Source: Clostridiaceae bacterium
GTDB lineage: Bacteria; Bacillota; Clostridia; Acetivibrionales; DUMB01
NCBI GenBank assembly: GCA_012840085.1
Contig: DUMB01000040.1
Coordinates: 1-64,000, forward strand
DNA: 64,000 bases
Reading direction: 5' to 3'
The notes below the pieces were generated by a model that saw only the letters and a program-made list of their open reading frames with translations, ran no database searches and was not told where the DNA came from. Both the position numbers and the translations under genes were made by a program. Of this stretch, positions 1,865 to 22,503 are shown one piece after another (the first letter of the stretch is position 1; the number at the start of each line of letters is the position of its first letter).

Positions 1865-4800
1865 TTATTGTTTAGTTAATCGTACATCATCAATATGAAG
1901 AGTAGTACCTCCAGGCGAATCAACATAGAAACCTACGTCAATTTGCCCATTTGTTACATAAATATTGCTAATGCTTATATATTTCCAAACCCCATCGTTA
2001 GTAATATTATAGTATATATCACTTCCTCCGTAATTCGATATTTCAGCTCTGGCAATTGTTGGTGTGGTATTTTTGAGTCTTACCCACGCTTCTAGCTTGT
2101 AATATGCATTATTGACTGGAACTGAAACTACCTGATGTATACTTTGCTTATATGCTGAACTATAGTACATATATACACGATTGCTTCCTGTCCATGGAGA
2201 TTCCGGCGGGTTTATAGTCGAACCGCTATCAATTCCATATGCAAGTGGTTGACCTGCCGGATGCCATTCAGTCCAGTTGCTTGAAAAACCGATGGGTCTT
2301 TCAAAGTCACCATTATCCAGAAGGTTAAGTTCGGACTGAGGAGTAGCAGGAGTTGTCGATGCAACTAAAATACGGTCTATATTGACATTTCCACTATCTG
2401 ACGAATCATATTTATATGCTATTGTGTTTATTCCCGCATTAAGAGTCAGGGTTTGCTCATAATCATTCCAAATATTCCAATTGCTTGATGGACTTGTCAG
2501 GCTGGCCTGCGCTACATCAACACCATTTACATATGTGCTTAATGTTTTTGTACTTCCTGTACCATTTGCATACCTCAATTTAACTTTATATGAGCCTGCT
2601 GAAGGAGCATAAACTTTAAACTTAACCTCTGCTCCTACTTTTGTGATTCCGTCAACAAATGCACTTCCTGAGTAGAACCAATGATCCTTGTTTGTTGACG
2701 CACCACCGGAAAGTTCTGCGCTTTCTGCTTCGTATTTCTGAACGTTTGCATCAAATGGAACTGTTATATAATCTATGTTTACATTTCCAGTATCACCAGC
2801 ATCATTATAGTATTTCAAAGTAATTATATTGTTTCCGGCTGTGAGTGGGATAGTTTCATTCTTTATAGCCCATGTATCCCAGTTTGCCAGGTTCGCAAGT
2901 GATGTTTGCTTCACCCTCTTGCCATTTACAAATATGCTGATGGTTTTTGCTGATCCCGTTGCATTCGCATACCTGATTCCTATATTATAATCTCCACCGG
3001 TTTTAACCTTTGGATAGAATGTTACTGCTGCACCTGCATTATCAAATCCGTCTACAAATCCCGAACCGGAATAACCTGCGTGATTTGTATTTACTTTTGC
3101 CTTAGTTGCTACGGTATTCCCTGAAAGAGATGCTTCTTCAGCTTCATATTTGTAAGAAGTATCCGATACTGTTGCCGTTCCATTTATAACTACGTTCTTT
3201 GCACTTGCACTTGCTGAGCTAATTTTTACATAGGTAACAGGACCATAAATATCTTTTCCTGTAGCCCAACCTTCACCTGAAGCTGATTTAAGAGCATTAA
3301 GGTCTGCATATTTGGTAGCTGCCACCCCATTAATAGTTACACTTGTACCTGCCTTACCGTGAATCTGTGCAATGTAATTTTGAACTTGTGGCACATAGGT
3401 TCCGGATTTTGCTCCTACACTGAAGCTGATACCGTTTGTTCCGTTGTCTTTTACGGTCATTACCTGTTTGAAGTATGCATTTCCTTCATAATTGTATGAA
3501 ATACCGTCATCATCATAATAAGTAAAACTGGATTGTGTGGTATCCGGGAATACATCCACCATAACACTTGTAATACTGCTTTGTCCTATATAATCCAAAA
3601 CCTTCTGTGTCGGAATGATTGCACCTTTTTTTACAAATACGGGAATATCAGTCCAAGTTTCCGAATCAATAGGATATGATATAGTTTGTCCACCTGTATA
3701 AGTATCACCTCTGAAATAGTCAATCCATGTACCCGACGGCAGATATATACTCTTGGAAGCCTGTCCCTGATCAACTACAGGAGCAACAAGCAAATAGTCC
3801 CCGAACATCCATGCATCTGTTCTGTTGCTAACATTTGGATCATTGGGGTAGTCGAAAATCAAAGGCCTTACTAAGCCTATGCCGGTTTCGTATGCACTTC
3901 TTTCATAAGAATACATATATGGTATTAAGCTGTATCTAAGTTGAATCGCATGTTTGGAAACTTCTTCTGCAGTTGTTCCATAAAACCATGGCTGACGCTG
4001 CTGGTGGTTGTTTCCATGAACCCTGAATACGGGAGTAAATGCACCGAACTGAATCCATCTAGTATACAATTCAGGATTTGGGTTTAATATGGTTCCATCA
4101 TTCTGATTGAATCCTCCCCCATCCATTCCCCATTTTGCCTGTCCATTGTTAATGGAAGACAGCATAACTGCTCTTTGTTCCTGCATACCTGCAGCCCAGC
4201 TGATTTTTTCGCCTTTATAGAACTGAGTTCCTATATCTCCTGACCAAAGTGTCGTTGCGTACCTTTGTGCACCGGGATAGTAAGTTCTTGCAGTTTGCCA
4301 AACCCTTTTGGTTCCTGAAGTGTAAGCCCTTTGACCCTCGTAAAGCGCTTGTGACAAGTGGGTTGTAGTAAAGTTTCCGAACCAGTACGTTGTTCCACCG
4401 GATGAAACTTTATCAGTCTCATCATTCCACCAACCAACAATACCTTTATCAAAGGCACTGATAGAGTGGTTCCAAAACCATGATCTACAAGCTGGATTAT
4501 ATGGGTCAATACTTCTAACCAATACAGGAATAAAATAGTCAGTATATTCAGATTGTCCAGGATACCAATAACCACCATTATTTGCATCATAATACTGTAC
4601 GGTTCTTGTACCACCCAAGGTTCTTGTTACTATTCTCGGTTTTGTAATACCAATCATTTTTATGCCTTTTCCATCCATTATTGTTTTCAACAAAGTTGTA
4701 GCAGCACTGGGAAACTTCGTCGTATTCCAGGTAAATTCACCATAATTATCTTCACCATAGTTTTTCCAGTCGTAGTCCAAGCCATATGAATCAATTGGTA

Positions 4801-5719
4801 TATTCTTAGCACGGTATGTGTCTACCATACTAATAACTTCACTTTCAGTAGTGTCCCACTCAAAATTGGAAAATCCTAAAGACCATTTGGGCAACATAGG
4901 TGCTTTTCCAGTTATCTCAGAAAATGATTGCATGATTTCCTTTGGAGTTCCCAGCATGATATAGTATTCAATATCCGATTTTGTATAGCGGCGGCCTTCC
5001 GGTGGTGTTCCACCTACGTAAAATTCGAATTTTCCTGTGGCAGATTCGGTATAAGGATAGCCACCATCTGAATCTACAAGTAGACCATATCCTGCTGTAG
5101 ACCACATGAAAGGTCCACCCGAATCACCTTGCTCACCTGCATGGGCTGGATGATTGTTGTCATTTCTTAAAATTTCTCCGTTTCCTTCAAATGCATTATA
5201 GCTTCTGATGCCATATATATTATGTCCAGTGTTGTGAAGGAATCTTACGCCATCATAAAAGACACCACCGCTTGACGGTTCCCAGAGAAGAGTTGTTCCG
5301 TCAGCTTTTTTTATGGTCATTCTTACCGGAGTCTTAGTAATTTCTATTCTCATTTTTGATGTCACAATTGTCATGGGATTTGTGTTTGTATTTATTGTAG
5401 CCCCTACAGCACTCCAGGTTTTATTGGGGTCTATTATAGGTGTGTCTGGACTTGCAGCAACCCCATTCGGTCTGTAATTTACTTTGAGAATATTATCTTT
5501 ACAAGCCGTTATCTCTAAAATATCATCCCCTGGTTCTGCACCATTGTCTACTGTTATAATAAGTGTATCACCACTGACGCTAGTGCTAATAGCATTTCCT
5601 AACGCGCCGACATATGCTTCAGTCTTTATAGGACTAAGAGTAAGGATGGAAGAAAACAGAATAGCAACTATGACAATAAAGGATAAAATCTTCCGCTTAC
5701 TTATATCCAGTTTAATCAT
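1865..5719 (-). CDS. ctsZ: Secreted GH31 6-alpha-glucosyltransferase (CtsZ-like)
   Basis: 1284 aa, preceded by the ribosome site AAAGGAGAT. A signal peptide ends near KTEA (residue 35). Residues 36-275 are an N-terminal beta domain, about 276-620 a GH31 barrel, and about 620-855 C-terminal beta domains. Two CBM35 modules follow (about 857-987 and 997-1120; both begin YEAE and hold GYSGSGFVDG or YSGSAFVDG), then a CBM4/9-like sandwich (1131-1284; starts NGDFE, ends IDDVRL). The likely nucleophile is Asp433 in WWNDE and the acid/base Asp495 in WSGD. As I remember it, Bacillus globisporus CtsZ has the same length and a signal peptide of about 35 aa. It would transfer glucose to O6 of the non-reducing end of maltodextrins outside the cell, making the substrate for the neighbouring CtsY-like enzyme. 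A plain alpha-glucosidase remains possible. Confidence 0.82.
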   Translation of the reverse strand: MIKLDISKRKILSFIVIVAILFSSILTLSPIKTEAYVGALGNAISTSVSGDTLIITVDNGAEPGDDILEITACKDNILKVNYRPNGVAASPDTPIIDPNKTWSAVGATINTNTNPMTIVTSKMRIEITKTPVRMTIKKADGTTLLWEPSSGGVFYDGVRFLHNTGHNIYGIRSYNAFEGNGEILRNDNNHPAHAGEQGDSGGPFMWSTAGYGLLVDSDGGYPYTESATGKFEFYVGGTPPEGRRYTKSDIEYYIMLGTPKEIMQSFSEITGKAPMLPKWSLGFSNFEWDTTESEVISMVDTYRAKNIPIDSYGLDYDWKNYGEDNYGEFTWNTTKFPSAATTLLKTIMDGKGIKMIGITKPRIVTRTLGGTRTVQYYDANNGGYWYPGQSEYTDYFIPVLVRSIDPYNPACRSWFWNHSISAFDKGIVGWWNDETDKVSSGGTTYWFGNFTTTHLSQALYEGQRAYTSGTKRVWQTARTYYPGAQRYATTLWSGDIGTQFYKGEKISWAAGMQEQRAVMLSSINNGQAKWGMDGGGFNQNDGTILNPNPELYTRWIQFGAFTPVFRVHGNNHQQRQPWFYGTTAEEVSKHAIQLRYSLIPYMYSYERSAYETGIGLVRPLIFDYPNDPNVSNRTDAWMFGDYLLVAPVVDQGQASKSIYLPSGTWIDYFRGDTYTGGQTISYPIDSETWTDIPVFVKKGAIIPTQKVLDYIGQSSITSVMVDVFPDTTQSSFTYYDDDGISYNYEGNAYFKQVMTVKDNGTNGISFSVGAKSGTYVPQVQNYIAQIHGKAGTSVTINGVAATKYADLNALKSASGEGWATGKDIYGPVTYVKISSASASAKNVVINGTATVSDTSYKYEAEEASLSGNTVATKAKVNTNHAGYSGSGFVDGFDNAGAAVTFYPKVKTGGDYNIGIRYANATGSAKTISIFVNGKRVKQTSLANLANWDTWAIKNETIPLTAGNNIITLKYYNDAGDTGNVNIDYITVPFDANVQKYEAESAELSGGASTNKDHWFYSGSAFVDGITKVGAEVKFKVYAPSAGSYKVKLRYANGTGSTKTLSTYVNGVDVAQASLTSPSSNWNIWNDYEQTLTLNAGINTIAYKYDSSDSGNVNIDRILVASTTPATPQSELNLLDNGDFERPIGFSSNWTEWHPAGQPLAYGIDSGSTINPPESPWTGSNRVYMYYSSAYKQSIHQVVSVPVNNAYYKLEAWVRLKNTTPTIARAEISNYGGSDIYYNITNDGVWKYISISNIYVTNGQIDVGFYVDSPGGTTLHIDDVRLTKQ

Positions 5720-5882: not shown

Positions 5883-8800
5883 CTATTGTTCCAGCAGAGC
5901 AATATTATCTAGATTGATTCCCAGAGAATTGGTACTATCATAGCTAACCTTTATGGTATTATGCCCTGCGTTAAGAGGGACTGTAATCGATACGGTATCC
6001 CATGTATCCCAGTTTGCTGTTTTCGGTAGCGTTACGTCCTGGATTTTTACACCATTTACATAGATTGCTCTAGAAGCATTTCCGGCAGCTGATGAATATC
6101 TCAATTTAATAGTGCGGTTGCCTGCTGTTTTTGAGAATATATCAAACTGTGCATAGTCCCCTACTGTTTCAAACCCATCTATAAAGCCAGTACCCATATA
6201 ACCTGCATGATTAGTGTTAGTGGATACAGCATGCATAGTGGCAAATTCAGCTTCATATTCTACTTTATTTACTCCGCTTAGCACAATCGTCCTTGTGCTT
6301 GTACTTGGACCGACTTTGACATATGTGAATTTTTGTGCAGTATCATAATACCAGCCGGTTGATGCACCAATTAGTCCGGACAATGTGCTGTACTGTGTTA
6401 ATGTGGTTCCTCCCACTTTAACTGAAGTCGGCTTTGTTGTGAAGACCTGTAATGTTGTTGTTGAGCCAACTGCCGGAAGTGAAATTGTTTCAGTACCTGC
6501 TCCATATGCTTCTGTTGAAACTATTGTTTTGACACTTCCGCCTATATCATCATACCAGTCATAAGAAGTTGTTCCGTGCGGATATATCCTAAAGGTAAGA
6601 TTAGTATAGCTTGTAAGATTATTTCCGATTGTTCCGCCAAGTTCATATTGTGAATTTAGATTCATAGGAATTATAGATCCGGCTTTTACAAATACGGGTA
6701 TGTCATTTACGGATGCCCAGTAGGTTATGGTTCTTCCACCCGGTCTCTGAGCTCCCCACCAAAAGTCGATCCATTCACCGCTTGGCAAATAAATACTCTT
6801 ATTTGTTTCTCCCTCGTTTACAATTGGAGCAACCAACAGGTTGTCACCAAACATATATTGTGCAGTCAGGTCATAGGTGTTGGTGTCATTAGGATATTCT
6901 ATTGCCATAGCTCTCATGAGCGGGATGCCTGTAGTGCTGGTTTTCTTTGCTTCACTATATATATAAGGTAAAAGATTCATTCTTATATTTGCAAACTTTG
7001 CAAATGTACTAATTATGGACGTATCACCTGTTCTTGCTTGTACATTCCACGGTGATCTTTCTTCGCTTGGGGACGGATTTGCTTTTTCCGAATGGAACTG
7101 CATTATTGGAGAGAATGCAGCCATTGCAGTGCTTCTCTTATATAATTCCGGTGTCGGGAATGGACCTGTAAAACCGGCTAAATCCCAGCCCCAGAAGGGA
7201 ACACCTGAGATGTTTGCTGTCAAGCCCGCCATTACTGCCTGCTGGTAAGAAGTAAAGGTAGACGATTGATCTCCTGCCCAATATCCACCGTACAACTGTG
7301 CGCCTGCTGTTCCTGATCTGCTGAAAGTATAAGCATTTGAATTCTTAGAACGTGCATATTCATAATATGCTTTAATGTATTCATTGGGATAGAAGTTTCT
7401 CATTTCATCGCCTTTTTTACCATTTGAGAATGTTACATTCTTACCCCATACCATTTCTCCACCATCTGTTTTGAAACCGTCAATTCCAACTCCGTCAAAC
7501 AGATAGGCTCTCTTTGACATCCACCAGTTTTTGGCATTAACATTTGTAAAGTCTAAGAGTAAGCTGTTCTCAAACCATTGCCCCCATGGAATCCTGTATT
7601 GTCCGCCTGATCCATCTCCTACAGCATAACCCTGTGAGATCATATATGCTTCATCAATATCCTTTTGTGTGTAAGGATAGCTCATATATTTCTGAATAGG
7701 TACCTGCCATAGTATAACCTTCAAGCCATTATCATGAGCATAATCTACCATAGCTTTAGGATTAGGCCATCGGCCACCGAAAGTAAAATCACTGTAGCTA
7801 AAACTTTGATTTCCGGGTTTTGGTGTATATGTTGCATCATTAAATATATAGAATGTACTTTCATCACTCCATTGTTCCAGAACTATTGCTGTGGCAGGAA
7901 TACCATAAGCTTTAGCATTATCTATAGCTCCTATTACTTCCGACTGTCTATCCCATTCATTGGCAGACATCCACAAGCCGAAAACCCATTTGGGCGGAAG
8001 TGGTGCTTTTCCGGTAATATCGGTATAGTTTGATATTACATCCTTTAAATCACTACCATAAATGAAATAATAATCCAGTATTGAATTTGATGATCCTCCG
8101 GTATCAGCTGTAAAACTGTACATGTCATTTCTTTCTGTTGCCATTCTGAACTTTGAATAGTATGTTGTATTTAAGTATATTCCGTAGCCTTTGGTGCTGA
8201 CAAAAAACGGAATTGCCATGTAAGTTCTTTCATTTTGGTTGAGATATTGGTTATAGACATAAGTATCTATATCATGGCCCCTTTTTCTGAAATTATTGTA
8301 ATGCTCTCCAAATCCATAGAACTCTTCATTTGATGGTGTATAAAAATGATCCTCAACTTTGCTAATAATTGTATTTCCGTTAGTAAGCCAGGCCATATTG
8401 CGATTAATGCTGCTATCATATTGCTGCGATATGACTGTAACCCCATCTGGTTTAAAAACAGTTATTCGGAACGGATTTTTTTGTACCTGTACTTTCAACT
8501 TTGACGTTGACATTGTAATAGTATTGGTAGTACTTGACAATGTATAATTGCTAAGACCTGTGGCAGTAAGGTTGTTTCCTGTCGGTGACATCTGGATGCG
8601 GAAAACGTCATCTGCCGTAAATGCAATATTTATCTTGGGAGTGAATGTCCCTGTATTTGGTACTGCATTCAGAACAACGCGATTGCCATAATTGGTATAT
8701 CCGCTTACGCTTGTAATGTATTCCCACCCTGTTACAGTGAACTGGAAAGGCCCTATTGTCTTTTCATTAGCTCCGTCCTTATTTGCATGAATGGTATAAC

Positions 8801-9158
8801 TGATTACATCTCCTTTGTTGAAACTTCCCATATTAACTTCCCAATATGAGTTATTTCCGCTGTTGTACTTCCACTGTCCACCTATATTAGGTTGTGGAAC
8901 CCCATTTTTAGTCCATGTAATCCATGTAGCTTGTCCGGGTTCTATAGGCCATGTGGTGAGTTTTATATATACATTTTCACCCGCAACCGGATCCCTTGGA
9001 TATCTTTCGGTTTGTTGAATTTCATAAAGGTCATTGATGCCATAGGGAGAATGATATACCCCATCAATTGCAAAAACATTAATTGAATAGAAAAGGAATA
9101 TAATTGTAAATACCAAAGCACCGAATTTGTGTTTTCTAGACATAAAATGCCTAATCAT
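5883..9158 (-). CDS. ctsY: Secreted GH31 3-alpha-isomaltosyltransferase (CtsY-like)
   Basis: 1091 aa, ribosome site AAAGGAGTGA. The signal peptide ends near residue 30 (INVFA). Residues about 31-145 form an N-terminal beta domain marked by ERYPRDPVAGENV. The GH31 barrel spans about 380-740, with nucleophile Asp565 in GFKTDGGE and acid/base Asp630 in WAGD. One CBM35 follows at about 966-1091 (YEAEF..HAGYMGTGFIDG). The known B. globisporus enzyme, of nearly equal length, transfers an isomaltosyl unit to O3 of an acceptor and closes the cyclic tetrasaccharide. Side-by-side orientation with the 1284-aa enzyme strongly supports the pairing. The CBM35 modules probably keep both enzymes on alpha-glucan. 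The paralogue at 11075-14827 shares the N-terminal domain but is cytoplasmic. Confidence 0.82.
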   Translation of the reverse strand: MIRHFMSRKHKFGALVFTIIFLFYSINVFAIDGVYHSPYGINDLYEIQQTERYPRDPVAGENVYIKLTTWPIEPGQATWITWTKNGVPQPNIGGQWKYNSGNNSYWEVNMGSFNKGDVISYTIHANKDGANEKTIGPFQFTVTGWEYITSVSGYTNYGNRVVLNAVPNTGTFTPKINIAFTADDVFRIQMSPTGNNLTATGLSNYTLSSTTNTITMSTSKLKVQVQKNPFRITVFKPDGVTVISQQYDSSINRNMAWLTNGNTIISKVEDHFYTPSNEEFYGFGEHYNNFRKRGHDIDTYVYNQYLNQNERTYMAIPFFVSTKGYGIYLNTTYYSKFRMATERNDMYSFTADTGGSSNSILDYYFIYGSDLKDVISNYTDITGKAPLPPKWVFGLWMSANEWDRQSEVIGAIDNAKAYGIPATAIVLEQWSDESTFYIFNDATYTPKPGNQSFSYSDFTFGGRWPNPKAMVDYAHDNGLKVILWQVPIQKYMSYPYTQKDIDEAYMISQGYAVGDGSGGQYRIPWGQWFENSLLLDFTNVNAKNWWMSKRAYLFDGVGIDGFKTDGGEMVWGKNVTFSNGKKGDEMRNFYPNEYIKAYYEYARSKNSNAYTFSRSGTAGAQLYGGYWAGDQSSTFTSYQQAVMAGLTANISGVPFWGWDLAGFTGPFPTPELYKRSTAMAAFSPIMQFHSEKANPSPSEERSPWNVQARTGDTSIISTFAKFANIRMNLLPYIYSEAKKTSTTGIPLMRAMAIEYPNDTNTYDLTAQYMFGDNLLVAPIVNEGETNKSIYLPSGEWIDFWWGAQRPGGRTITYWASVNDIPVFVKAGSIIPMNLNSQYELGGTIGNNLTSYTNLTFRIYPHGTTSYDWYDDIGGSVKTIVSTEAYGAGTETISLPAVGSTTTLQVFTTKPTSVKVGGTTLTQYSTLSGLIGASTGWYYDTAQKFTYVKVGPSTSTRTIVLSGVNKVEYEAEFATMHAVSTNTNHAGYMGTGFIDGFETVGDYAQFDIFSKTAGNRTIKLRYSSAAGNASRAIYVNGVKIQDVTLPKTANWDTWDTVSITVPLNAGHNTIKVSYDSTNSLGINLDNIALLEQ

Positions 9159-11074: not shown

Positions 11075-14000
11075 TTATAAAAAGTTTATATTTATATATT
11101 GTTTACTTTTTTCACAATCCAGTTTTATTATCAAGCTATTATTATCCAAAGTATAAGAATCAGATATAATTTCTTTCACAGAATTAACTTTAATAATATT
11201 CTTTTTATCACTTTGAATTGATATTTTTTCATTAATGCCTCTAAAAATTAAAGTAATAGGACTATAGTTTGATTCAATCTCTGCCAAAATATTCTCATCT
11301 TTTCGCTGAACGTTAATGCTAACTTTATTTCCTAAATCATCAATATAATTACAATCTGCAATACTTGTAACGAATAACATGAAGCATAAATTATTGTAAG
11401 TGTCAAGCTTGTTAGACACATATTCGAACAGGGAGAAATTACTGCCTAAATTTAACGGAATCACGCTGTTTTCTTTTACAAATACCGGAATTTCGTCGAG
11501 ATTGGCTTTTACTCTGGTGTCCAAAGGTCCTTCAAATATTTCTCCGCTAAACAGATTGAGCCATTTTCCTTCAGGCAGATAAACATCTTTAACTGTGCTG
11601 CCTTCCTCAATTACAGGAGCAACCAATAAACTATCACCGAATAAATACTGCTGCCAAAGATCAATACAACTTGGGTCTTCAGGATACTCTAAATGCATAA
11701 GCCTCATCATCGGAATCCCTGTCTTACATGTATTAACAGCCTGCATATAAATATACGGCAAGAGGTTCATTCTCAAATCTGCATATTTCTTATAGATTTG
11801 GATCACACGTTCATCTCCGGTCCTTTCTGCAATATTCCAGGGTGTTCTGTCCTGATTAAACTGTCCTTTTGTCTCAGCATGGTATTGCATTATAGGACAG
11901 AAAGCTGCCATTTGTGCAGACCGGACATATAGTTCTGCAGTGGGTATATCTCCATTGAATCCACCTAAATCCCATCCCCAGAATGGAATACCTGACATGC
12001 TGCAGCTTAACCCTGCTTTTACGGAAGCAGCAAAAGCTTTATAAGTTGACCGTTCATCTCCTGCCCAGTGTAAAGGTATTTTCTGGGCACCCGTATATCC
12101 GGCTCTGCTGAATGTTATTCCATCTTCTCCTTTATATTTTTTTATAAACTCTTGGTAACTGCCTACATACAGATTCGGATACAGGTTTCTCATTTCACTG
12201 CCGGTAGAACCATCATGGAACAAAAGATCACTGCCATATATACATTCTCCACCATCAGTTTTAAAACCGTCTATCTTTAAATCCTCCAGGAGATACTTTC
12301 TCTTATTCAGCCACCATTCTTTTGCAGCCGGATTTGTAAAATCAGGCACCAAACTTCTCTTGAACCATTCAAAACTTGGGATTCTATATGGCTCTCCATC
12401 TTTATGTTTTACACAGAAACCATTTTTAAGCATTACTTTTTCATCTTCATCTCTTTGTGCGTGAGCAATTCCATCCATATACTTCATAACCGGCGCTTGC
12501 CATAACAGTATCTTAAGGCCTTCGTCATGTATGTCCTTAACCATTTTTTTCGGATCAGGCCAACGTCCCCAAGCAGGAAATGTGAAGTCCTCCAATTCAA
12601 AATATGAGTTTCCGTCTTTAACTTCATATTGCGCATCATTAAAAATGTAAAAAGTAGCTTCATCACTCCATTGCTCAAGTACAATAACTGTAGAAGGAAT
12701 TTCATATTTTTTGCCCAGTGCAATTTGCTTCATTACTTCTTCCTGTTTATCCCAGTTATTACTTGATATCCATGGACCAAAAACCCATTTTGGAGGAAGT
12801 TTTGCCTTGCCGATGGTATCTGTATAACTACCCAGAACCTCTTTTGGGTTGCCTGTATACAAATACATATCCAATGTTTGATTTTTACTGCTTAAGTCTA
12901 CTTCAAGCTCCATGAGATCTGATAATCTTGTGCCAAATCTGTAACGGGCATATAATGGGGTATCCAGGTAAATGCCGTAACCTTTTGAACTAAGCAGGAA
13001 CGGTACAGGCATGTAAGTACGCAGTCCCTGGTCCCTATACTGGTTATAGACATAGTTGTCAACTTCAAGGCCCCTGTATTGAATATGTGAGTATCTTTCA
13101 CCAAGACCAAATATTCTCTCATCTGATGCCATATTCAAATTAAAGCGTACTTTAAAAGCCTGTGAACTTCCGTCTGTGAGTATATCTATAAAACCAGGTC
13201 TTTTGTTTTTTCGATAGCTTTTCAGTATAGTATTGTTATTGAGGTCATTGATACTAAATGATATCTTATTATTATTGAAATTAAGCTTATTATTGCCAAA
13301 ATCTATATCCAAAGTATTGTCTATATTCAAAGCATTGGTTGATTGATTTAAGTGATTTAATATGTTTTTCACAGATATCTGATCTTCAAAACAGAAGGAC
13401 CACTTCAGCGTATTATCATTTACCTGCTTTATCTTTAAACAAGGTATATGTTGATTATTATCTATATTTTCAAAATATACTGAAAGTTCATTTTCACCTT
13501 CAACTATTCCTGTTACCTTAGATAAAGTATGCCACTTTCTAACTGTAAAGCCATATTCGTTTGACTTTATCGTTCTTTGTCTGTCAGAAACTTCAAAATA
13601 ATAGGTAATTCTATCACAGTAATTGAAACTGCCAATTTCTGTTTCCCAGTATTTTTCCCCTTCAGATGAAGTTTTGATTCTCATCCGGGATTTTTGTTGA
13701 GTAATGCCGTTTACTGTATATATTGCATTAACAACCTGCTCTTCATCAAATGGTTGTGTAACAGCTTTAAGGATAACATTTTCGCCTTCCTCGGGCTGCC
13801 TTGGAAATCTCTCAATTACCGAGAAAATATACTTGTTCTCTGTTCCCAAAGGATTGTGAATTATTTGTATATCCGTACCGGCATCGACGCCTTGCTGTTC
13901 CTTAAGCTTTATATTTTGCTGAGCTATCGCATAAGCAATATAAGTGAAAGGCTTCTCCAAACATTTATTATCCTGCATTTCGCTCCAATAGCTAAAGTAT

Positions 14001-14827
14001 AATTCTTCTTTATAGCTTCTCAGATCCAGTTCAAATAGTTTTCCATCTCTGTTCCAGACAGCTTCCACTTGTTCCAGCAACCATTTTGCACGTGCAATAT
14101 CTCCTCTTTCCGAGTAATACCAAGATAAAAGGCAAGTCAGGTCATTCCTTATACAGCCTCCATAATATGTATCATTTTTGCTTAGTCTGACGCCTTTTGA
14201 TACCAGTTCCCTTTCAACAACCTTTATAGTTTCAACAAGTATCTGGTTTCCTGCATCCATTAATCCAAAGGGTACGGATATGAGACATATATCGCCCATT
14301 ATTTCTTCTGAACCAAGCTTGCTCAAGACCTTGCCTTCCTTAAGGAATTTTTTAAACATAAAATCTTTAATTTTGAGCATACATTGCTGTGCAGTATCAT
14401 TTTTTAAAAAATTGTTGACAGATTGGAGTGCGCCATAGGCAACGGCCAGATTGGTAAGAAAAATGCCTTCCTGAGTTTCTCCAATCCAGTTTACTGCCGG
14501 TTTTTGCCAGTAAAGTTCAACATTATTGATCACTTTTAGCATAAGATTCTTCGTTTTTTCAGGTATTTCCACGTTATTTGCCTTATTGAAGTATTCTCCT
14601 GATATCCATAACCAAAGTATTTCTTCCATGTATGTTGAACTGGAATTTTGAATACTTCTGGTTATAGAATCTATTAGTCTTGCAGCAAGTTTTAAATCTC
14701 CCTTTTGAACCAGATGATAGCATAGAAATACTGAATCTTTAATGCTTATTTCTTTATGATTAAACTTAATATGTTCGTCTTCAAAATCAAAAATTGAAAT
14801 AGGATTAAATTCTTTATTAGCCTTCAT
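11075..14827 (-). CDS. Cytoplasmic GH31 fused to an (alpha/alpha) helical domain
   Basis: 1250 aa, ribosome site CAGGAGG, no signal peptide and no CBM. Residues about 320-435 repeat the CtsY N-terminal domain (ERFPRQPEEGENV). A GH31 barrel follows with nucleophile Asp858 (GFKTDGGE) and acid/base Asp924 (WAGD), clearly a CtsY paralogue. Residues 1-310 are extra: helix-rich, with segments VNWIGETQEG, ERELVSKGVR and a GDIARAKWLLEQ..LFELD stretch. These resemble the (alpha/alpha)6 fold of GH15 glucoamylases, though the domain is shorter. Being cytoplasmic and next to a sugar importer and a GH65 phosphorylase, it most likely opens the imported cyclic tetrasaccharide, as the GH31 cycloalternan-degrading enzymes do. 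Whether the N-terminal domain is catalytic is unknown; an isomaltosyltransferase activity is the main alternative. Confidence 0.75.
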   Translation of the reverse strand: MKANKEFNPISIFDFEDEHIKFNHKEISIKDSVFLCYHLVQKGDLKLAARLIDSITRSIQNSSSTYMEEILWLWISGEYFNKANNVEIPEKTKNLMLKVINNVELYWQKPAVNWIGETQEGIFLTNLAVAYGALQSVNNFLKNDTAQQCMLKIKDFMFKKFLKEGKVLSKLGSEEIMGDICLISVPFGLMDAGNQILVETIKVVERELVSKGVRLSKNDTYYGGCIRNDLTCLLSWYYSERGDIARAKWLLEQVEAVWNRDGKLFELDLRSYKEELYFSYWSEMQDNKCLEKPFTYIAYAIAQQNIKLKEQQGVDAGTDIQIIHNPLGTENKYIFSVIERFPRQPEEGENVILKAVTQPFDEEQVVNAIYTVNGITQQKSRMRIKTSSEGEKYWETEIGSFNYCDRITYYFEVSDRQRTIKSNEYGFTVRKWHTLSKVTGIVEGENELSVYFENIDNNQHIPCLKIKQVNDNTLKWSFCFEDQISVKNILNHLNQSTNALNIDNTLDIDFGNNKLNFNNNKISFSINDLNNNTILKSYRKNKRPGFIDILTDGSSQAFKVRFNLNMASDERIFGLGERYSHIQYRGLEVDNYVYNQYRDQGLRTYMPVPFLLSSKGYGIYLDTPLYARYRFGTRLSDLMELEVDLSSKNQTLDMYLYTGNPKEVLGSYTDTIGKAKLPPKWVFGPWISSNNWDKQEEVMKQIALGKKYEIPSTVIVLEQWSDEATFYIFNDAQYEVKDGNSYFELEDFTFPAWGRWPDPKKMVKDIHDEGLKILLWQAPVMKYMDGIAHAQRDEDEKVMLKNGFCVKHKDGEPYRIPSFEWFKRSLVPDFTNPAAKEWWLNKRKYLLEDLKIDGFKTDGGECIYGSDLLFHDGSTGSEMRNLYPNLYVGSYQEFIKKYKGEDGITFSRAGYTGAQKIPLHWAGDERSTYKAFAASVKAGLSCSMSGIPFWGWDLGGFNGDIPTAELYVRSAQMAAFCPIMQYHAETKGQFNQDRTPWNIAERTGDERVIQIYKKYADLRMNLLPYIYMQAVNTCKTGIPMMRLMHLEYPEDPSCIDLWQQYLFGDSLLVAPVIEEGSTVKDVYLPEGKWLNLFSGEIFEGPLDTRVKANLDEIPVFVKENSVIPLNLGSNFSLFEYVSNKLDTYNNLCFMLFVTSIADCNYIDDLGNKVSINVQRKDENILAEIESNYSPITLIFRGINEKISIQSDKKNIIKVNSVKEIISDSYTLDNNSLIIKLDCEKSKQYININFL

Positions 14828-14841
14828 AATATTCCTCCTGT

Positions 14842-17133
14842 TTATCTAATTGAAATAATCTCTTCCTTACATTTCAAGAGTAAAACAGGCTGATTTGCTA
14901 CAGTAATTTGCAATTCATCTGGTTCTCCTTCCTCATATGTTACTGAAATAGCTTTGGAGGAAACAGATACTTTTAAAAGACACTGATGATAATACATTCT
15001 AAAGCTAACTTTTTCCCATTGCTTCGGAATATGAGGATTTATTTTTAAATTACCCTGCTCTAACTCTATACCGCAAAAACCGTTGATAACAGCTTGCCAG
15101 CTTGCGCCCAGAGCAGCAAAGTGAATTCCTTCCTCCTGGGTATTTTGCATAATGTTATCCAGGTCAAGACACACACTTTTTATAAAATATTTATAAGCTT
15201 CCTCCATCATATTAAGTCGGGCAGCAAATGCAGAATGCGTGCCATAGCTCAAAGATGAATCATGGGCAGTTATAGGTTCATAATAATTCCATGCTGCCAA
15301 TTTTTCTTTGGTACTAAATTTATCAGAAAGCAGCAACATTAAGAGAATTACATCAGCTTGTTTCAAAACCCTATATCTTTGTAAACGGTCAAAGCATATT
15401 TTTCTGTATAACGGCCGGTCTCCTTCCTTCACACTGCTTAGATCCAATGGCTCCAGATTCAGGATGTTGTCATCCTCCAAGTAAAGTGATTTATCTGCGT
15501 CATAGTTTATAACTACTTTCTCTATAATCTCATCCCACTGTCTAACTTCATCCTCTTTAAAACCAAGCTTTTCGGCCAAAAGCTGATATGCTTCAGAATA
15601 ACATGTTTTTATCTTTTTAATAAATTTCTTAGCAAGCTGCATATTATGAACAGCCATCATTACAGTATAGAGATTGTTGTTCACAACTCCTCCGTATTCA
15701 TTGGGACCTTTGACGAACAACATATTATAACAGTCTTTACGGCTGTCATATGTAAACCTGCTCTTCCAATACCTTGACGTCTGGATAAGTATCTCTAATC
15801 CAAAATCTCTCATAAATTCAATGTCATTGGTTGCCTCATAGTAATGATTTATTGCATAGGCGACATCGGCAGTTATATGGACCTCACTAAGTCCAATATC
15901 CCAGGTATCACACTGGTCTAATCCGTCAACAGCACTCATCCATGGATATCTGGCACCTTCAACATTCTGCCTTCTGGCATTTTCCTCTGCTCCGTTTAAA
16001 GTGTGATATCGGTATAACAGAAGATTTCTGGCTGCCTTTGGATTGGTATAAATATAGAATGGAAGCATGAATATTTCCGTATCCCAAAAATAGCATCCCT
16101 TATATCTCCCATGCATTAATCCCCTTGCACCGATATTTACATAAGGGTCATTTTCAGCATTGGTTTGTATAAGCTGAAATATGTTATATCTTATGGCTTT
16201 CTGGCTTTTGTTGTCACCGACAAACTCAATATCACTTATTCGCCATTTTCGTTCCCAGGCTGCAGCATGATTTTTAATCATCGCAGCCACTCCCAAATCC
16301 TTCGCAGTTTTTACCGACTGAAGTACTTGATCCTCCAGGCTTCCGGCATACTTATCCCTTGATGTCCAGACACTGATGAATTTATTCAAAGTATAGACTT
16401 CACCTTTGGCAACTGGGAAGGTAAACTTATCGGCAACATATTTTTCCCGTTGTACAATATTTTGTTCCAACTTTAGAATACTTCCTCCATGCCTCACTTC
16501 TGATGAAAATCCCTCATATATTTTTAAACCTGTTACAGTTGTTTTCAAACGGATAATATGAATATTATCAATATGAATAGCTTCTCCATCCTCTGCAAAT
16601 AATCTGCAAAAATTAGTACTGGTCTTTACCTGGTCATCATCAATTATATTGTTCCATATATCAGCATCAATTCCGGTTTCTATTACGATCTCTCCGGAAT
16701 AGTTGACAGGAGTAATATTTATACTCAGTACAGCATTGTGTATTGAATCAATGCTTAAAATCCTTGTGGTCTCTATTAAGGTTTCGTTTCCCTGCTCGTT
16801 CTTCCAGATTAATTTTCTTTTTAATATTCCTTCTCTCATATTTAATTCTTTGTTATACTCTAAGATTTCTCCCCGTTCAGGAGCGAACCTTTCACCGTTG
16901 ACAAAAATACTGGTACACCAAAAGTTTGGTGAATTTACCATATCCGTCTTGCCTGGCGCATAATAATCAAAAACTCCGGCTATAAAGGTATTTATTTCAT
17001 GTTTGGCATCCCTAATTTCTTCTTCGTCAAATCCTCTAACACCCATATAACCATTGCCTAATGAAAATATACTTTCATAAAATTTCTTACTTTGTATATC
17101 AAAATCATTTTGATTTATTACCCAGTTATTCAT
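14842..17133 (-). CDS. GH65 alpha-glucoside phosphorylase
   Basis: 763 aa, the usual length for GH65 phosphorylases. It has an N-terminal beta-sandwich (1-270), a helical linker, an (alpha/alpha)6 catalytic barrel and a C-terminal beta domain. The general acid is Glu479 in GPNEYGG. HDSSLS (624-629) is the phosphate-binding motif, and WDTEIFMLP (350-358) is a typical barrel motif. The enzyme cleaves an alpha-linked glucose disaccharide with phosphate, giving beta-glucose 1-phosphate plus glucose. Family members act on maltose, trehalose, kojibiose or nigerose; sequence alone does not settle which. In this locus nigerose (alpha-1,3), left after hydrolysis of alpha-1,6 bonds in the ring, is an attractive substrate. 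The gene lies 14 bases upstream of the cytoplasmic GH31 and is surely cotranscribed with it. Confidence 0.85.
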   Translation of the reverse strand: MNNWVINQNDFDIQSKKFYESIFSLGNGYMGVRGFDEEEIRDAKHEINTFIAGVFDYYAPGKTDMVNSPNFWCTSIFVNGERFAPERGEILEYNKELNMREGILKRKLIWKNEQGNETLIETTRILSIDSIHNAVLSINITPVNYSGEIVIETGIDADIWNNIIDDDQVKTSTNFCRLFAEDGEAIHIDNIHIIRLKTTVTGLKIYEGFSSEVRHGGSILKLEQNIVQREKYVADKFTFPVAKGEVYTLNKFISVWTSRDKYAGSLEDQVLQSVKTAKDLGVAAMIKNHAAAWERKWRISDIEFVGDNKSQKAIRYNIFQLIQTNAENDPYVNIGARGLMHGRYKGCYFWDTEIFMLPFYIYTNPKAARNLLLYRYHTLNGAEENARRQNVEGARYPWMSAVDGLDQCDTWDIGLSEVHITADVAYAINHYYEATNDIEFMRDFGLEILIQTSRYWKSRFTYDSRKDCYNMLFVKGPNEYGGVVNNNLYTVMMAVHNMQLAKKFIKKIKTCYSEAYQLLAEKLGFKEDEVRQWDEIIEKVVINYDADKSLYLEDDNILNLEPLDLSSVKEGDRPLYRKICFDRLQRYRVLKQADVILLMLLLSDKFSTKEKLAAWNYYEPITAHDSSLSYGTHSAFAARLNMMEEAYKYFIKSVCLDLDNIMQNTQEEGIHFAALGASWQAVINGFCGIELEQGNLKINPHIPKQWEKVSFRMYYHQCLLKVSVSSKAISVTYEEGEPDELQITVANQPVLLLKCKEEIISIR

Positions 17134-17220: not shown

Positions 17221-19035
17221 TTATTTTTGCTCGAAAAATGCATGATAGATTGCATATGCCAAAAATCCTGCACATGTAGCAAAAGCCTCTCCTGTTGTAC
17301 ACTCACCTGTAGTTTCATCAACGCTCTCACAAGCAATTCCATTATCCATTTTCAATACAGGCAGTATATCAAGGAACTCTCTTTTTCTCCCACATATCAG
17401 ACTATTAGCTATGCTTAAAACCCATGGGTGTGGAGCATGTTCACAGCCAATTTCCGCTATTCTGCAGTTATGAAATGAAAATTTGTATTCTGGTCTGCGT
17501 ATATGCTCAACTGTATTTTGATAAACATGATTATTCTCGTCACAAAATCCGTAAAAAGGCAAAAGCTGCAAACTTCCGGGAGGTTCATCATATATATTCC
17601 ATTGTCCGTTAAGATCAACTGACCAGGCAAACATTTCCTTATCACACAGTTTTACAACACAGTGATCCCAAATAGCCTTTTCAACTTTAGCAGCTTTTTC
17701 AAGTAATTTGTTACTGAACTCAACTCCTTCAATACCTTTTAGCATTTCAGCAAGATATATAAGTGCCTTCCATACTAAAACATTGTTATATGTAAGATAT
17801 GGATAGACAATCATATCATCAGTAGGTTGTAAAAAGGTTTCGTAAAGATCAACCTCTCTGTGTTTTTTCGAATCAAGAATATTTAAAATTTTCCTTAAAC
17901 CTTTTAGAATATAATCTTCACTAAGAATTGTCATGTCCCCGGAATAACTAATATAATTATGCAGGGCAATGACAGGAGCACATAATTCATCCAATTCAAA
18001 ACCCGGCTCCAACATAGTACCGTCAATAAAGCGGCTGTGAATTCCTACATTCCTAATCTGCTTTGTAAAAACATATTCTAACATGTTTCTAGCATAGTCC
18101 ACGTCGGTAATTAAAATCGAAGGGAAGCTCCATAAAAGACTGTCTCTATCCCAATAAGCCGCACTTACGTAATATCTGGGACTTCTGGATGTAACCAAAA
18201 CAAATTCTTCAGTATCCAAAGTTATACCTGATGCATAAAAGTAATTAAAAAACAGGTTTCTATTGAATAAGCTTTCTAATTCCTTATTTGGACAGGTTTT
18301 TTGACGGCTTGACAGCCAGTTGCACGTATCATGCATTACTTTTTCAAAGCCTTTTCTTAACATTTCCTGTGCAGAGGTTGCCGCGCTTACCTCTTCAAGG
18401 CCTAGTCCCCAGTAAAATGTTAGTTCACATGATTCACCGGGACATAGATGAAAACTCTTGGCCAATTCATATCTAATTCCATCATTGTGATGTTCAAAAA
18501 CTTCATTATCCATTTTTTCATTAAATATCGGAGCAATTGAAAATATAGTGACCATGTTTCGGAAATCCATTATGAAACTTCTATTCCAGTTGCTTTTATA
18601 TATATATTGGCTTCCGTTCATAGTTTTACTTTCATTTATTGTATGAAGACAGTTTTTCCAGCATCCCTTCAGGCCTGTTGAAATATCAACATCTTCTTTT
18701 CCATGATTCGTTATACTTAATTTATAAATAAAACCTCTTTCACCCACAGGTGCAAGTATTAAACCTGAAAATATTATACTGCCCCATTCTGTTTTAAATC
18801 TCGGAATCCAGTAATGTACATTGTCCCATACTAAATTTTCCATAGGCATGTCTTTTCCGTCTACTCTGCAAAATGGGCGCATAAACTCATCTCCGTGGTT
18901 GTTCCCTCCACGAATTTCAATAAGCCCCTTAAATCCCATATGTAAAAAATTTATAGAGCAAATTGAAGCATCGGATTCTCTAATTTCTGGTATTGATATC
19001 ATTTCATTGCCTGTAGGGATAAATCTTTTTGTCAT
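17221..19035 (-). CDS. (alpha/alpha)6-barrel glycoside hydrolase-like protein
   Basis: 604 aa from the ATG that follows AAGGAG by 8 bases; an upstream in-frame GTG overlaps the ribosome site. No signal peptide. The N-terminal half looks like a beta-sandwich. The C-terminal half (from about 245) has six-hairpin features: AAYWDRDSLLWSFP, PGFELDELCAPV and ESVDETTGECTTGEAF. These recall GH125 (WLRDS and DSLCYP) and glucan-debranching enzymes, but I cannot place it in a family. Located between the binding-protein gene and GH65, it probably acts in the cytoplasm on an oligosaccharide made or imported by the locus, possibly as an exo-glucosidase. Acid and base residues are not assigned. Confidence 0.6.
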   Translation of the reverse strand: MTKRFIPTGNEMISIPEIRESDASICSINFLHMGFKGLIEIRGGNNHGDEFMRPFCRVDGKDMPMENLVWDNVHYWIPRFKTEWGSIIFSGLILAPVGERGFIYKLSITNHGKEDVDISTGLKGCWKNCLHTINESKTMNGSQYIYKSNWNRSFIMDFRNMVTIFSIAPIFNEKMDNEVFEHHNDGIRYELAKSFHLCPGESCELTFYWGLGLEEVSAATSAQEMLRKGFEKVMHDTCNWLSSRQKTCPNKELESLFNRNLFFNYFYASGITLDTEEFVLVTSRSPRYYVSAAYWDRDSLLWSFPSILITDVDYARNMLEYVFTKQIRNVGIHSRFIDGTMLEPGFELDELCAPVIALHNYISYSGDMTILSEDYILKGLRKILNILDSKKHREVDLYETFLQPTDDMIVYPYLTYNNVLVWKALIYLAEMLKGIEGVEFSNKLLEKAAKVEKAIWDHCVVKLCDKEMFAWSVDLNGQWNIYDEPPGSLQLLPFYGFCDENNHVYQNTVEHIRRPEYKFSFHNCRIAEIGCEHAPHPWVLSIANSLICGRKREFLDILPVLKMDNGIACESVDETTGECTTGEAFATCAGFLAYAIYHAFFEQK

Positions 19036-19130
19036 TAGTTCCACTCCTTAAAGAGATTTATAATTATCCATATATTTTCCTTATCATAGACTTTCATAAC
19101 TTGATAATATATAGTTAATGTAATATAATA

Positions 19131-19302: not shown

Positions 19303-20661
19303 TTATTGGAGCAGTTTTTCAATCTTTTCTTTTGCTGCATCAAGCGCTTCCTGTGCAGTAACTTTTCCATACTTTGCTTTTTCCAGCTCTTCACCTAATA
19401 CTTGTTGTAACTCAGCCCACTTTTCAGGTATTGGTCCCAGTGGAGGCAGTACCAGAGAGTCGAGAAGATCTGTTGCAACCTTTTTGGATTCCGGTGGTGT
19501 CTTCTTATAGTATGCACTCATGACATTATCATCGTTAAGTACAGGAATGTTCCAGTTCTCTTCTATCCTTGTGTTAACTACAAACGGATCTATGGCCATA
19601 TATTTCATAAATGTCCATGCTGCATTACCTTTCTCGCTGTTTTTATACATAGCTAACCCGTTGGAGAAGAAGTGATGTGCTTTTTGAGTATTTCCAGGTT
19701 CAAGTACTATATCCCAATTACATTTAGCATTCTTTTCAAATTCTCCAAACTGCCAGGTACCATTTCTGAGCATTGCAATTTTACCCTCTTCAAATGCACG
19801 CCAGTCAGCATCAGGCTGAGTATAAATATCGCTTGTAAAAGGCGGTTGAACTTTATATTTATATGATTTATCAATCATCCATTGAAGAGCTTCTACACAT
19901 TCCTTGCTGTTGACAGTCACAGTCTTTCCGTCAGTACCCCAGACGCTTCCTCCGTTTTGTGCAATAGTTTTGTAAAACTCATATACCTGAAGCGGAGAAA
20001 CAGTTCCCCATATGCCCTTGCTTTCATCTGTAAGCTTCTTAGCTGCCTCGAGCTCATCTTCCCAAGTCCAGTTTTCATTTGGGTATTCCAATCCTTTACT
20101 GTCAAAGAGGTCCTTATTGTAATACATTATACATCCGGTAAAATCTGTGCATATTCCCATCTGTTTTCCATCAAACTTATATGCATCAAATGCAAGCTTT
20201 TTCATGTTTTCCGTTTTGAATTCCGAATCGCTTGCCACTATATCAGTTATATCTTTTAAGAGACCTTTCGAAGCATACTGTGCAAAATTTTCATAACCTA
20301 CCTCAAACACATCGGGTGCTTCAGCCCCGGCACTTAACACTGTATTAAGCTTTGTGTAATAGTCGTTCCATGGTATGATTTCATAATCTACAGTTATGTT
20401 TGAATACTTCGTCTGGAAATTGTCTATCATAGACTTTAATACATCTTCACGTCCGCCATTTGCTGAGTTCTGTATAAATTTAATCGTAACAGGTTCTGCT
20501 TCTTTTTCTTTCGGCTGGGTATCAGGTGTGTCAGATTTGTTTTCTTCTACAACTTTCTCACTATCATTTGTTGCCTTCTCGTTTTTGTCAGACCCACATC
20601 CAACAAAAAGTGCCGTCACCATTAATAAAGCAAGTATCAATGCAAAAATTCTTTTTACCAT
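19303..20661 (-). CDS. Sugar ABC transporter solute-binding lipoprotein
   Basis: 452 aa, ribosome site GAGGAGGGC. It is a type II lipoprotein, with signal sequence and lipobox LFVGC giving Cys22 as the modified residue, followed by an acidic linker. The body (from about 60) is a family 1 extracellular solute-binding protein with typical segments such as VDYEIIPWNDYYTKLNT, APDVFEVGYENFAQYA and the C-terminal NGLAMYKNSEKGNAAW. It would capture an oligosaccharide outside the membrane and hand it to the two permeases encoded just upstream. By context the ligand is the cyclic tetrasaccharide or its linear precursors. No ATPase gene accompanies the system. Confidence 0.9.
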   Translation of the reverse strand: MVKRIFALILALLMVTALFVGCGSDKNEKATNDSEKVVEENKSDTPDTQPKEKEAEPVTIKFIQNSANGGREDVLKSMIDNFQTKYSNITVDYEIIPWNDYYTKLNTVLSAGAEAPDVFEVGYENFAQYASKGLLKDITDIVASDSEFKTENMKKLAFDAYKFDGKQMGICTDFTGCIMYYNKDLFDSKGLEYPNENWTWEDELEAAKKLTDESKGIWGTVSPLQVYEFYKTIAQNGGSVWGTDGKTVTVNSKECVEALQWMIDKSYKYKVQPPFTSDIYTQPDADWRAFEEGKIAMLRNGTWQFGEFEKNAKCNWDIVLEPGNTQKAHHFFSNGLAMYKNSEKGNAAWTFMKYMAIDPFVVNTRIEENWNIPVLNDDNVMSAYYKKTPPESKKVATDLLDSLVLPPLGPIPEKWAELQQVLGEELEKAKYGKVTAQEALDAAKEKIEKLLQ

Positions 20662-20795: not shown

Positions 20796-21629
20796 TTAGC
20801 CTTTTATGCCGCTGTGTGCAAGACTTTTTATAAAGTACTTTTGAGCAAACAGGTATACCATAAGTATTGGTATAGTACTGATTACATTGCCTGCCATAAG
20901 GAGATTCCATGCAGTTGTCCATCTCCCTTGCAGTTTAGAAAGTCCAAGTGGTAATGTCGCTAACTCTGTACTGCTTGTGATAATTAATGGCCAAAGGAAA
21001 CTGTTCCATGATTCCATAAACCCCAGTATACCCACTGTTGCGAGTGCTGGTTTACATAATGGTAATATTAATTTAAAAAATATCTTAAAATGGGATGCTC
21101 CATCAACTGTTGCAGCTTCTGCAAATGAATCCGGAATAGTTCTGATGTGCTGTCGCATGAGAAATATTCCCAGTGCATTGTATGTACTTGGCAAAATCAG
21201 ACCCAGGTATGAGTTTTGCAGGTGCAAATTAACAAATATCCTGTAAAGTGTAATCATTGTGAGTTGTCTTGGAACCATCATGGTAATCAGAAATAAGGTA
21301 AATAAAACTTCTCTTCCGGTAAACTTTATTTTTGCAAAAACATATGCCGCCATTGCACAAAATAATAGCTGTAAAATCGTTGATGAAAATGCAACAAATA
21401 CACTGTTAAGTAAAAACCTGCCGACAGGAAACAGCTTGCTTATTGTTCTGAAATTATCAAAACTAAATTTTGAAGGCAATAGCGTCGGAGGCATTTTTAT
21501 TACTTCTACATCATTTTTAAAAGCTCCCATGAACATCCATAAAAACGGAAATATGAATAATACGCTTAACAAAATGAGTAAAATATGCAACAGGATCCTC
21601 TTGGCTCTTTTATTGTTATTTTGACTCAT
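20796..21629 (-). CDS. Sugar ABC transporter permease (MalG type)
   Basis: 277 aa from the ATG after AAGGTGGG; a longer frame to 21677 overlaps the preceding gene too far. Six predicted membrane helices. The family EAA loop EAATVDGASHFKIFFKLILPL is present, which docks the ATPase. The C-terminus is FIKSLAHSGIKG. The gene overlaps the first permease gene by 14 bases, implying translational coupling. Together the two permeases form the membrane channel for the lipoprotein at 19303-20661. Confidence 0.92.
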   Translation of the reverse strand: MSQNNNKRAKRILLHILLILLSVLFIFPFLWMFMGAFKNDVEVIKMPPTLLPSKFSFDNFRTISKLFPVGRFLLNSVFVAFSSTILQLLFCAMAAYVFAKIKFTGREVLFTLFLITMMVPRQLTMITLYRIFVNLHLQNSYLGLILPSTYNALGIFLMRQHIRTIPDSFAEAATVDGASHFKIFFKLILPLCKPALATVGILGFMESWNSFLWPLIITSSTELATLPLGLSKLQGRWTTAWNLLMAGNVISTIPILMVYLFAQKYFIKSLAHSGIKG

Positions 21630-22503
21630 AATGAACCCACCTTTTTTGCAGAATATTCTGAACAAGCGTGACAACAAGTATTATTACAACCAGCAGCCAA
21701 GCCTGTGCACATGCAAATCCGACCTTGCCCATTTGGAAAGCATTTTCATATATTTCCTGTACGATAGTCCTCGTACTGCCGAAGGGCCCTCCCTTTGTCA
21801 TTATAAATACTTGGTCAAAAACCTGAAATGATGTGATAAGTGAAGTAACTATCAAGAAGAAAAGTATTGGGGTCAGACATGGCAGAGTGATATAGAACAG
21901 CTTTTTTATACTATTGGCACCGTCGATTTCTGCGCTTTCATAATACTCATCAGGTATATTCTGCAATCCTGACAGAAGAATTACAGCGGCAAACCCTACA
22001 TCCTTCCATAAACTAGCTATAATCACTGCCGGCATGGCAGTATGTTCATTTTGGAGCCAGGCAGGGCCATTGATACCGATCAAGGATAACAAGTAGTTAA
22101 TAATACCGCTGTCTGGACTATACAGCCAAATCCATATAAGAGATACTACTACCCAAGAAATAACTACAGGCATGAAAAATATTACTCTATATACATCTAA
22201 ACCTGTAATTTTAATATTCAGCAATATGGCAAGCATTAAACCAAAGCAAATAACCAAAGGGGTAAACCCAACTACATATTTAAGAGTATTAACAATGCTT
22301 TTTATAGAATTTTCATTAAAAAAAACGTTATAATAGTTTTGAAACCCAACGAATTTGGGATTTGTGAGCATATCCCAATCTGTAAAACTCATAAACGCTG
22401 AACTTATTATCGGAATTATATTGAATAGTATAAGACCAATGAGACTAGGTAGAAGAAATGTCAAAATTACCAGTCCTTTGCTAAGCCTGCTTTCGCCAAC
22501 CAT
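21616..22503 (-). CDS. Sugar ABC transporter permease (MalF type)
   Basis: 295 aa, ribosome site AGGAGTGAGG. Six hydrophobic helices. The EAA loop ESAEIDGANSIKKLFYITLPCL lies near residues 190-211. TKGGPFGSTRTIVQEIYENAF is the usual conserved segment of CUT1-family permeases. It pairs with the downstream permease. The gene follows the LacI-type repressor gene by 35 bases, so regulator and transporter share a transcript. Confidence 0.92.
   Translation of the reverse strand: MVGESRLSKGLVILTFLLPSLIGLILFNIIPIISSAFMSFTDWDMLTNPKFVGFQNYYNVFFNENSIKSIVNTLKYVVGFTPLVICFGLMLAILLNIKITGLDVYRVIFFMPVVISWVVVSLIWIWLYSPDSGIINYLLSLIGINGPAWLQNEHTAMPAVIIASLWKDVGFAAVILLSGLQNIPDEYYESAEIDGANSIKKLFYITLPCLTPILFFLIVTSLITSFQVFDQVFIMTKGGPFGSTRTIVQEIYENAFQMGKVGFACAQAWLLVVIILVVTLVQNILQKRWVHYESK

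Follow-up and report, generated by a model that had tools for sequence, protein, structure and literature searches.

A GH31 protein with a predicted non-catalytic GH15-like front domain in a clostridial locus resembling the cycloalternan pathway

Whether a single polypeptide can both open a cyclic glucan and release glucose from the product is the question raised by one gene of a Clostridiaceae bacterium, which encodes a helical domain followed by a GH31 enzyme. The original prediction, made on the first 64,000 bases of a 205,650-base contig (the whole stretch analysed, here called the window), described a cytoplasmic CtsY paralogue fused to a glucoamylase-like unit, proposed that both activities reside in one chain, and knew of no described example of this fusion. 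The reading that appears fairly probable here is instead that of a cytoplasmic, cycloalternan-opening GH31 hydrolase carrying a conserved, non-catalytic pseudo-GH15 domain. The gene, its domains and the residues discussed below are the following:

11075-14827, minus strand: whole fusion gene, 1250 amino acids, a single open reading frame with its ATG at 14827 and its stop at 11075-11077; no signal peptide visible
14834-14839, minus strand: Shine-Dalgarno sequence AGGAGG, 6 nt before the fusion ATG, seen in the sequence upstream of the start
13883-14827, minus strand: GH15-like (alpha/alpha)6 domain at the N-terminus, residues 1 to about 315, predicted to be non-catalytic (sequence matches and AlphaFold model)
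13646-13861, minus strand: Lmo2446-like N-terminal domain, residues 323-394 (Pfam PF22681, E 4.5e-20)
12956-13288, minus strand: GH31 galactose-mutarotase-like domain, residues 514-624 (Pfam)
11744-12802, minus strand: GH31 TIM-barrel catalytic domain, residues 676-1028 (Pfam PF01055, E 2.8e-69)
11459-11719, minus strand: GH31 C-terminal beta domain, residues 1037-1123 (Pfam)
14480-14482, minus strand: Gly116, which takes the position of the GH15 general acid (KfIG Glu178) in the alignment; the E178A mutant chain 5z3c fixes that position
14030-14032, minus strand: Glu266, which takes the position of the GH15 general base (KfIG Glu335) in the alignment; kept in four clostridial fusions
12254-12256, minus strand: Asp858, GH31 nucleophile (FKTDGGE), corresponding by alignment to the position occupied by Asn in the Lmo2446 chain 5f7u
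12056-12058, minus strand: Asp924, GH31 acid/base (WAGDER), corresponding by alignment to the position occupied by Ala in the TpCADE chain 5i0g; the next residue is Glu, as it is in the CADE structures

The GH65 gene upstream ends 14 nt ahead of the fusion ATG which, together with the position of the Shine-Dalgarno sequence, indicates that translation of the fusion begins at the helical domain. A complete GH31 is recognised by Pfam from residue 323 onward, as had been predicted, while the same scan assigns no significant family to residues 1-317. No secretion signal is visible when the sequence is inspected by eye. Wherever it was sampled (both ends and the centre), the contig reads as its own exact reverse complement, so that the duplicate of each gene towards the far end is probably an assembly artefact; the identical second copy of the fusion at position 190824 was rejected as a real duplicate for this reason. 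The fusion itself is not an assembly artefact, since the same architecture recurs in other genera.

The proposal that the first 310 residues adopt a glucoamylase-like (alpha/alpha)6 fold was borne out, and the motifs quoted for it are found at residues 114-121 (WIGETQEG), about 205-212 (ERELVSKG) and 264-268 (LFELD). The best solved relative by sequence is PDB 5hop, deposited as residues 1-245 of Listeria Lmo0182 (E 6.6e-13), and the region also matches KfIG, the GH15 isomaltose glucohydrolase of Kribbella flavida (5z3a, E 6.5e-9); both matches lie far beyond chance. An AlphaFold model built from seven aligned fusions (pLDDT 72.9, pTM 0.77) contains about eleven helices. Foldseek searches with this model return 5hop at the top (2.6e-8), followed by the KfIG structures (about 1e-7). 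Structural alignment with VIA-align gives Z values of 23.6 for KfIG (rmsd 4.1, 277 aligned), 21.5 for 5hop (rmsd 2.8, 231 aligned) and 21-23 for fungal and bacterial glucoamylases, all well over the warning level of the tool for helical models. GH125 and other (alpha/alpha)6 families score somewhat lower, at Z about 20-21, and because they follow so closely the assignment to GH15 draws on the sequence matches too. Taken with the model, these matches show residues 1 to about 315 as a predicted (alpha/alpha)6 domain of GH15 type and ancestry. At about 315 residues it falls short of a complete GH15 catalytic domain (371 residues in the KfIG structure), and its size varies across fusions, from about 315 residues in clostridial proteins to about 230-275 in most Bacilli. 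No description of this domain was found in the open literature searched.

GH15 enzymes use two catalytic glutamates, the acid in the alpha5-alpha6 loop and the base in the alpha11-alpha12 loop (PMC12446779). In KfIG these residues are Glu178, the first Glu of the WWEE motif as fixed by the E178A chain, and Glu335. The window protein lacks this pair: Glu178 aligns with Gly116, while Glu266 fills the base position, with Asp31 close to the site of KfIG Asp56. Thus, of the carboxylates expected in the barrel cleft the base-position one remains, but the standard acid-base pair is broken. The substrate loop of the stand-alone relatives (NFQLDGYGT) is absent, as is the WSHA motif (PLLWSHA in the same relatives). 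Among 40 aligned fusions, none holds both glutamates; the base position is Glu in four and the acid position in six, the latter all from Bacilli and without the base region. Both glutamates are present in all 12 stand-alone relatives picked without a motif filter; the remaining seven of the 19 were selected by a PEQ motif or, in one case (L068), by eye, and only the other 12 are therefore independent for the base glutamate. In the window protein alone, a shifted acid might conceivably be provided by Glu117, one residue off the acid position. Judged from these residues, the N-terminal domain is very probably not catalytic, and the fusion protein probably has one active site rather than the two originally envisaged.

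The GH31 part of the window protein retains both its nucleophile and its acid/base aspartates. In a correlation that covers few sequences, the residue directly after the acid/base is Glu in 10 of 10 fusions, in TpCADE and KfCADE and in a Thermotogaceae enzyme, and Gln in all four secreted enzymes of CtsY type, one of which the window encodes. Similarly, an SRxG[Y/F] motif is common to the GH31 part of the fusion and both CADE enzymes, where the four CtsY-type enzymes have SRxGT. In a phylogenetic tree whose fusion rows were chosen as such, ten fusions, those of Listeria among them, group as one clade by their GH31 parts (support 96/96), and both the CADE pair and the secreted enzymes of CtsY type fall outside it; the deeper order lacks resolution and the branches are long. 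With the fusions separate from the CADE pair in such a tree, the case for a CADE-like function is built on genomic context and a small number of residues. By these signs the GH31 part resembles a hydrolase, and the label of CtsY paralogue needs correction: a relationship to Lmo2446/CtsY GH31 enzymes stands, but the active-site neighbours match those of cycloalternan-degrading enzymes, although the fusions make up a separate clade.

Genomic context is provided by the genes on either side of the fusion:

14842-17133, minus strand: GH65 enzyme, nearest solved relative the kojibiose phosphorylase 3wiq (sequence match)
17221-19044, minus strand: GH125-related protein, 607 amino acids (Pfam and sequence comparison)
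19303-20661, minus strand: ABC solute-binding protein, best match Lmo0181 (5f7v, E 4.9e-90, next match far behind)
20796-22503, minus strand: two ABC permeases (domain scan)
22539-23567, minus strand: LacI-family regulator (domain scan)
5883-9158, minus strand: secreted GH31 of CtsY (3-alpha-isomaltosyltransferase) type (Pfam, motifs and tree)
1865-5719, minus strand: secreted GH31 of CtsZ type, nearest solved relative 5x7o (sequence match)

The label given to the last of these genes follows from the activity of the relatives of 5x7o, which we take to be that of CtsZ, a 6-alpha-glucosyltransferase. The CtsY-type enzyme is 61% identical to the one found beside the fusion of Gracilibacillus. The permeases and the regulator belong to the same gene run as the binding protein, whose relative Lmo0181 has been crystallised with cycloalternan (PMC7676653), and the ABC importer and the fusion also occur together in other genomes. 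The combination of an Lmo0181-like binding protein with secreted enzymes of CtsY and CtsZ types points to a cycloalternan pathway. Imported cycloalternan would then be opened in the cytoplasm by the GH31 part, acting as a retaining hydrolase on alpha-1,3 bonds, while the front domain would descend from a GH15 isomaltose glucohydrolase that lost catalysis and yet was conserved. From residues and locus together we infer that the substrate is cycloalternan and that the reaction is hydrolysis, not transfer. The release of glucose would be left to neighbouring enzymes, namely the GH65 and GH125-related proteins in this locus and a GH13 enzyme in most others. Genes for the GH65 and GH125-related proteins precede the fusion in the window, in a second genome of the same order and in locus L060, and at several other loci a GH13 enzyme adjoins the fusion or lies near it.

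Several features of these neighborhoods deserve mention in their own right. The GH125-related protein of 607 amino acids is kept beside the GH65 gene and the fusion in three genomes (the window, L060 and L054), a setting in which mannosidase activity seems unlikely. A HAD-family gene, beta-phosphoglucomutase-like by eye, accompanies the GH65 gene and the fusion at L060:9705-10409 and L064:12023-12703, the family assignment coming from a scan of the L060 gene only; its presence beside the GH65 gene suggests that the latter acts as a phosphorylase. The window also holds a truncated gene of the GH13 alpha-amylase family (26672-27718, minus strand), which covers just the C-terminal half of the catalytic domain and has stops in all three frames upstream, whereas in sister loci an intact GH13 gene adjoins the fusion.

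The architecture is already known. Contrary to the belief that no example had been described, Listeria Lmo0182 has the same arrangement of a GH15-like N-terminal domain and an Lmo2446-like GH31, the structure of its N-terminal domain (5hop) was released in 2017, and the window protein is a further member. Loci L113 and L114 match the 5hop fragment without a difference over 179 residues, and their reading frame continues into GH31. As in the window, Lmo0182 is encoded after the genes of the cycloalternan ABC importer, and its acid position is also Gly. It differs in the length of its N-terminal domain (246 residues against about 315), in lacking a Glu at the base position, and in its neighbours, which are GH31 and GH13 enzymes rather than GH65 and GH125-related proteins. 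The regulator also differs, being ROK-like by eye at Lmo0182 and at some other Bacilli loci, and LacI in the window.

The fusion occurs in Listeria and in other lineages of Clostridia and Bacilli. A second genome of the order to which the window belongs carries it with an N-terminal domain 46% identical, and further fusions occur in Mageeibacillus, another Clostridiales genome, Alkaliphilus, Gracilibacillus and Lactobacillus. Matches to a profile of the N-terminal domain were obtained in 16 of 395 genomes of the Lactobacillus order and 19 of 348 of the Gracilibacillus order, counts that include the two centre genomes; the matching frames are 845-1176 residues long, and in each one inspected the GH31 motif is present too. 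Among 391 genomes sampled from the class of the window, the fusion was found only in the window's own genome. In a Thermotogaceae contig (L068:4830-8196), an unfused Lmo2446-like GH31 gene lies beside an intact GH15 gene, after ABC importer genes, suggesting that the fusion partner was at hand, with the gene order opposite to that of the fusion.

Other known relatives each share part of this arrangement. KfIG has the fold and sequence of the front domain, but it is a stand-alone active enzyme with Glu178 and Glu335, where the fusion has neither the acid nor the substrate loop. The cycloalternan-degrading GH31 enzymes TpCADE (5f7s) and its Kribbella counterpart (5x3i) have the catalytic aspartates and the following Glu of the fusion, but their chains of 733-743 residues are without a GH15-like domain and fall outside the fusion clade. 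Lmo2446/CtsY, finally, is closest in overall GH31 similarity and shares the Lmo2446-like N-terminal domain; it is, however, a transferase that is secreted, has Gln following the acid/base and carries no GH15-like domain.

Against this background, an enzyme in which an active GH15 domain frees glucose from the isomaltose made by the GH31 domain is highly improbable. The confirmed fold, the retention of Glu266 and Asp31, and the unfused pair of Thermotogaceae are in its favour, but Gly116, the deleted loop, the missing WSHA and the lack of any fusion with both glutamates argue against it, and the same loci encode other candidate enzymes for the second step. That the GH31 part is a cytoplasmic CtsY-like 3-alpha-isomaltosyltransferase is unlikely: its score is higher to Lmo2446 than to CADE (679 against 491 bits, over different lengths), but the residues beside the acid/base and in the SRxG motif side with both CADE structures against all four CtsY-type enzymes, the tree separates the fusions from CtsY with high support, and a protein with no visible signal peptide is encoded among importer genes.

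As for the identity of the sugar, it is rather doubtful that the substrate is another alpha-1,3/1,6-glucan fragment, such as linear isomaltosyl-nigerose oligosaccharides or panose-type products, instead of the closed ring. The GH65 gene related to kojibiose phosphorylases and the exchange of LacI for ROK-like regulators in Listeria and some other Bacilli suggest variation in the sugars handled, but the binding protein is by far closest to cycloalternan-bound Lmo0181 and both types of ring-forming enzyme are encoded nearby. In the front domain, the loss of catalytic residues and the shorter form of most Bacilli would fit a passive evolutionary remnant without function. This view is very unlikely in light of its selection in Listeria and of its presence throughout the sampled clade, whose rows were chosen as fusions.

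The N-terminal domain is under strong purifying selection in Listeria, and is not decaying. Its pairwise dN/dS is about 0.03-0.09, close to or below that of the next 200 codons, the single values being rough because dS approaches or exceeds 1 in many pairs. The domain would have a structural or binding role, either in holding the fold or an oligomer, or in keeping sugar near the GH31 site. A model of the full-length protein from seven rows (pLDDT 59.5, pTM 0.48) was too poor to guide the packing of the domain and was set aside. A more specific, tentative possibility is that evolution turned the pseudo-GH15 domain into a sugar-binding or regulatory module, one that might hold isomaltosyl ends or sense product, and that it thereby controls ring opening by the GH31 part. 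If so, it would be a pseudoglucosidase regulating its own fused partner.

The Lmo0182 architecture extends to several clostridial and Bacilli lineages, and the front domain of such proteins would be a dead relative of glucoamylases kept by selection, which cautions against annotating Lmo0182-type fusions as bifunctional glucoamylase/GH31 enzymes. A structure deposited as a domain fragment (5hop) may thus provide an example, open to testing, of a pseudoenzyme domain within glycan metabolism.
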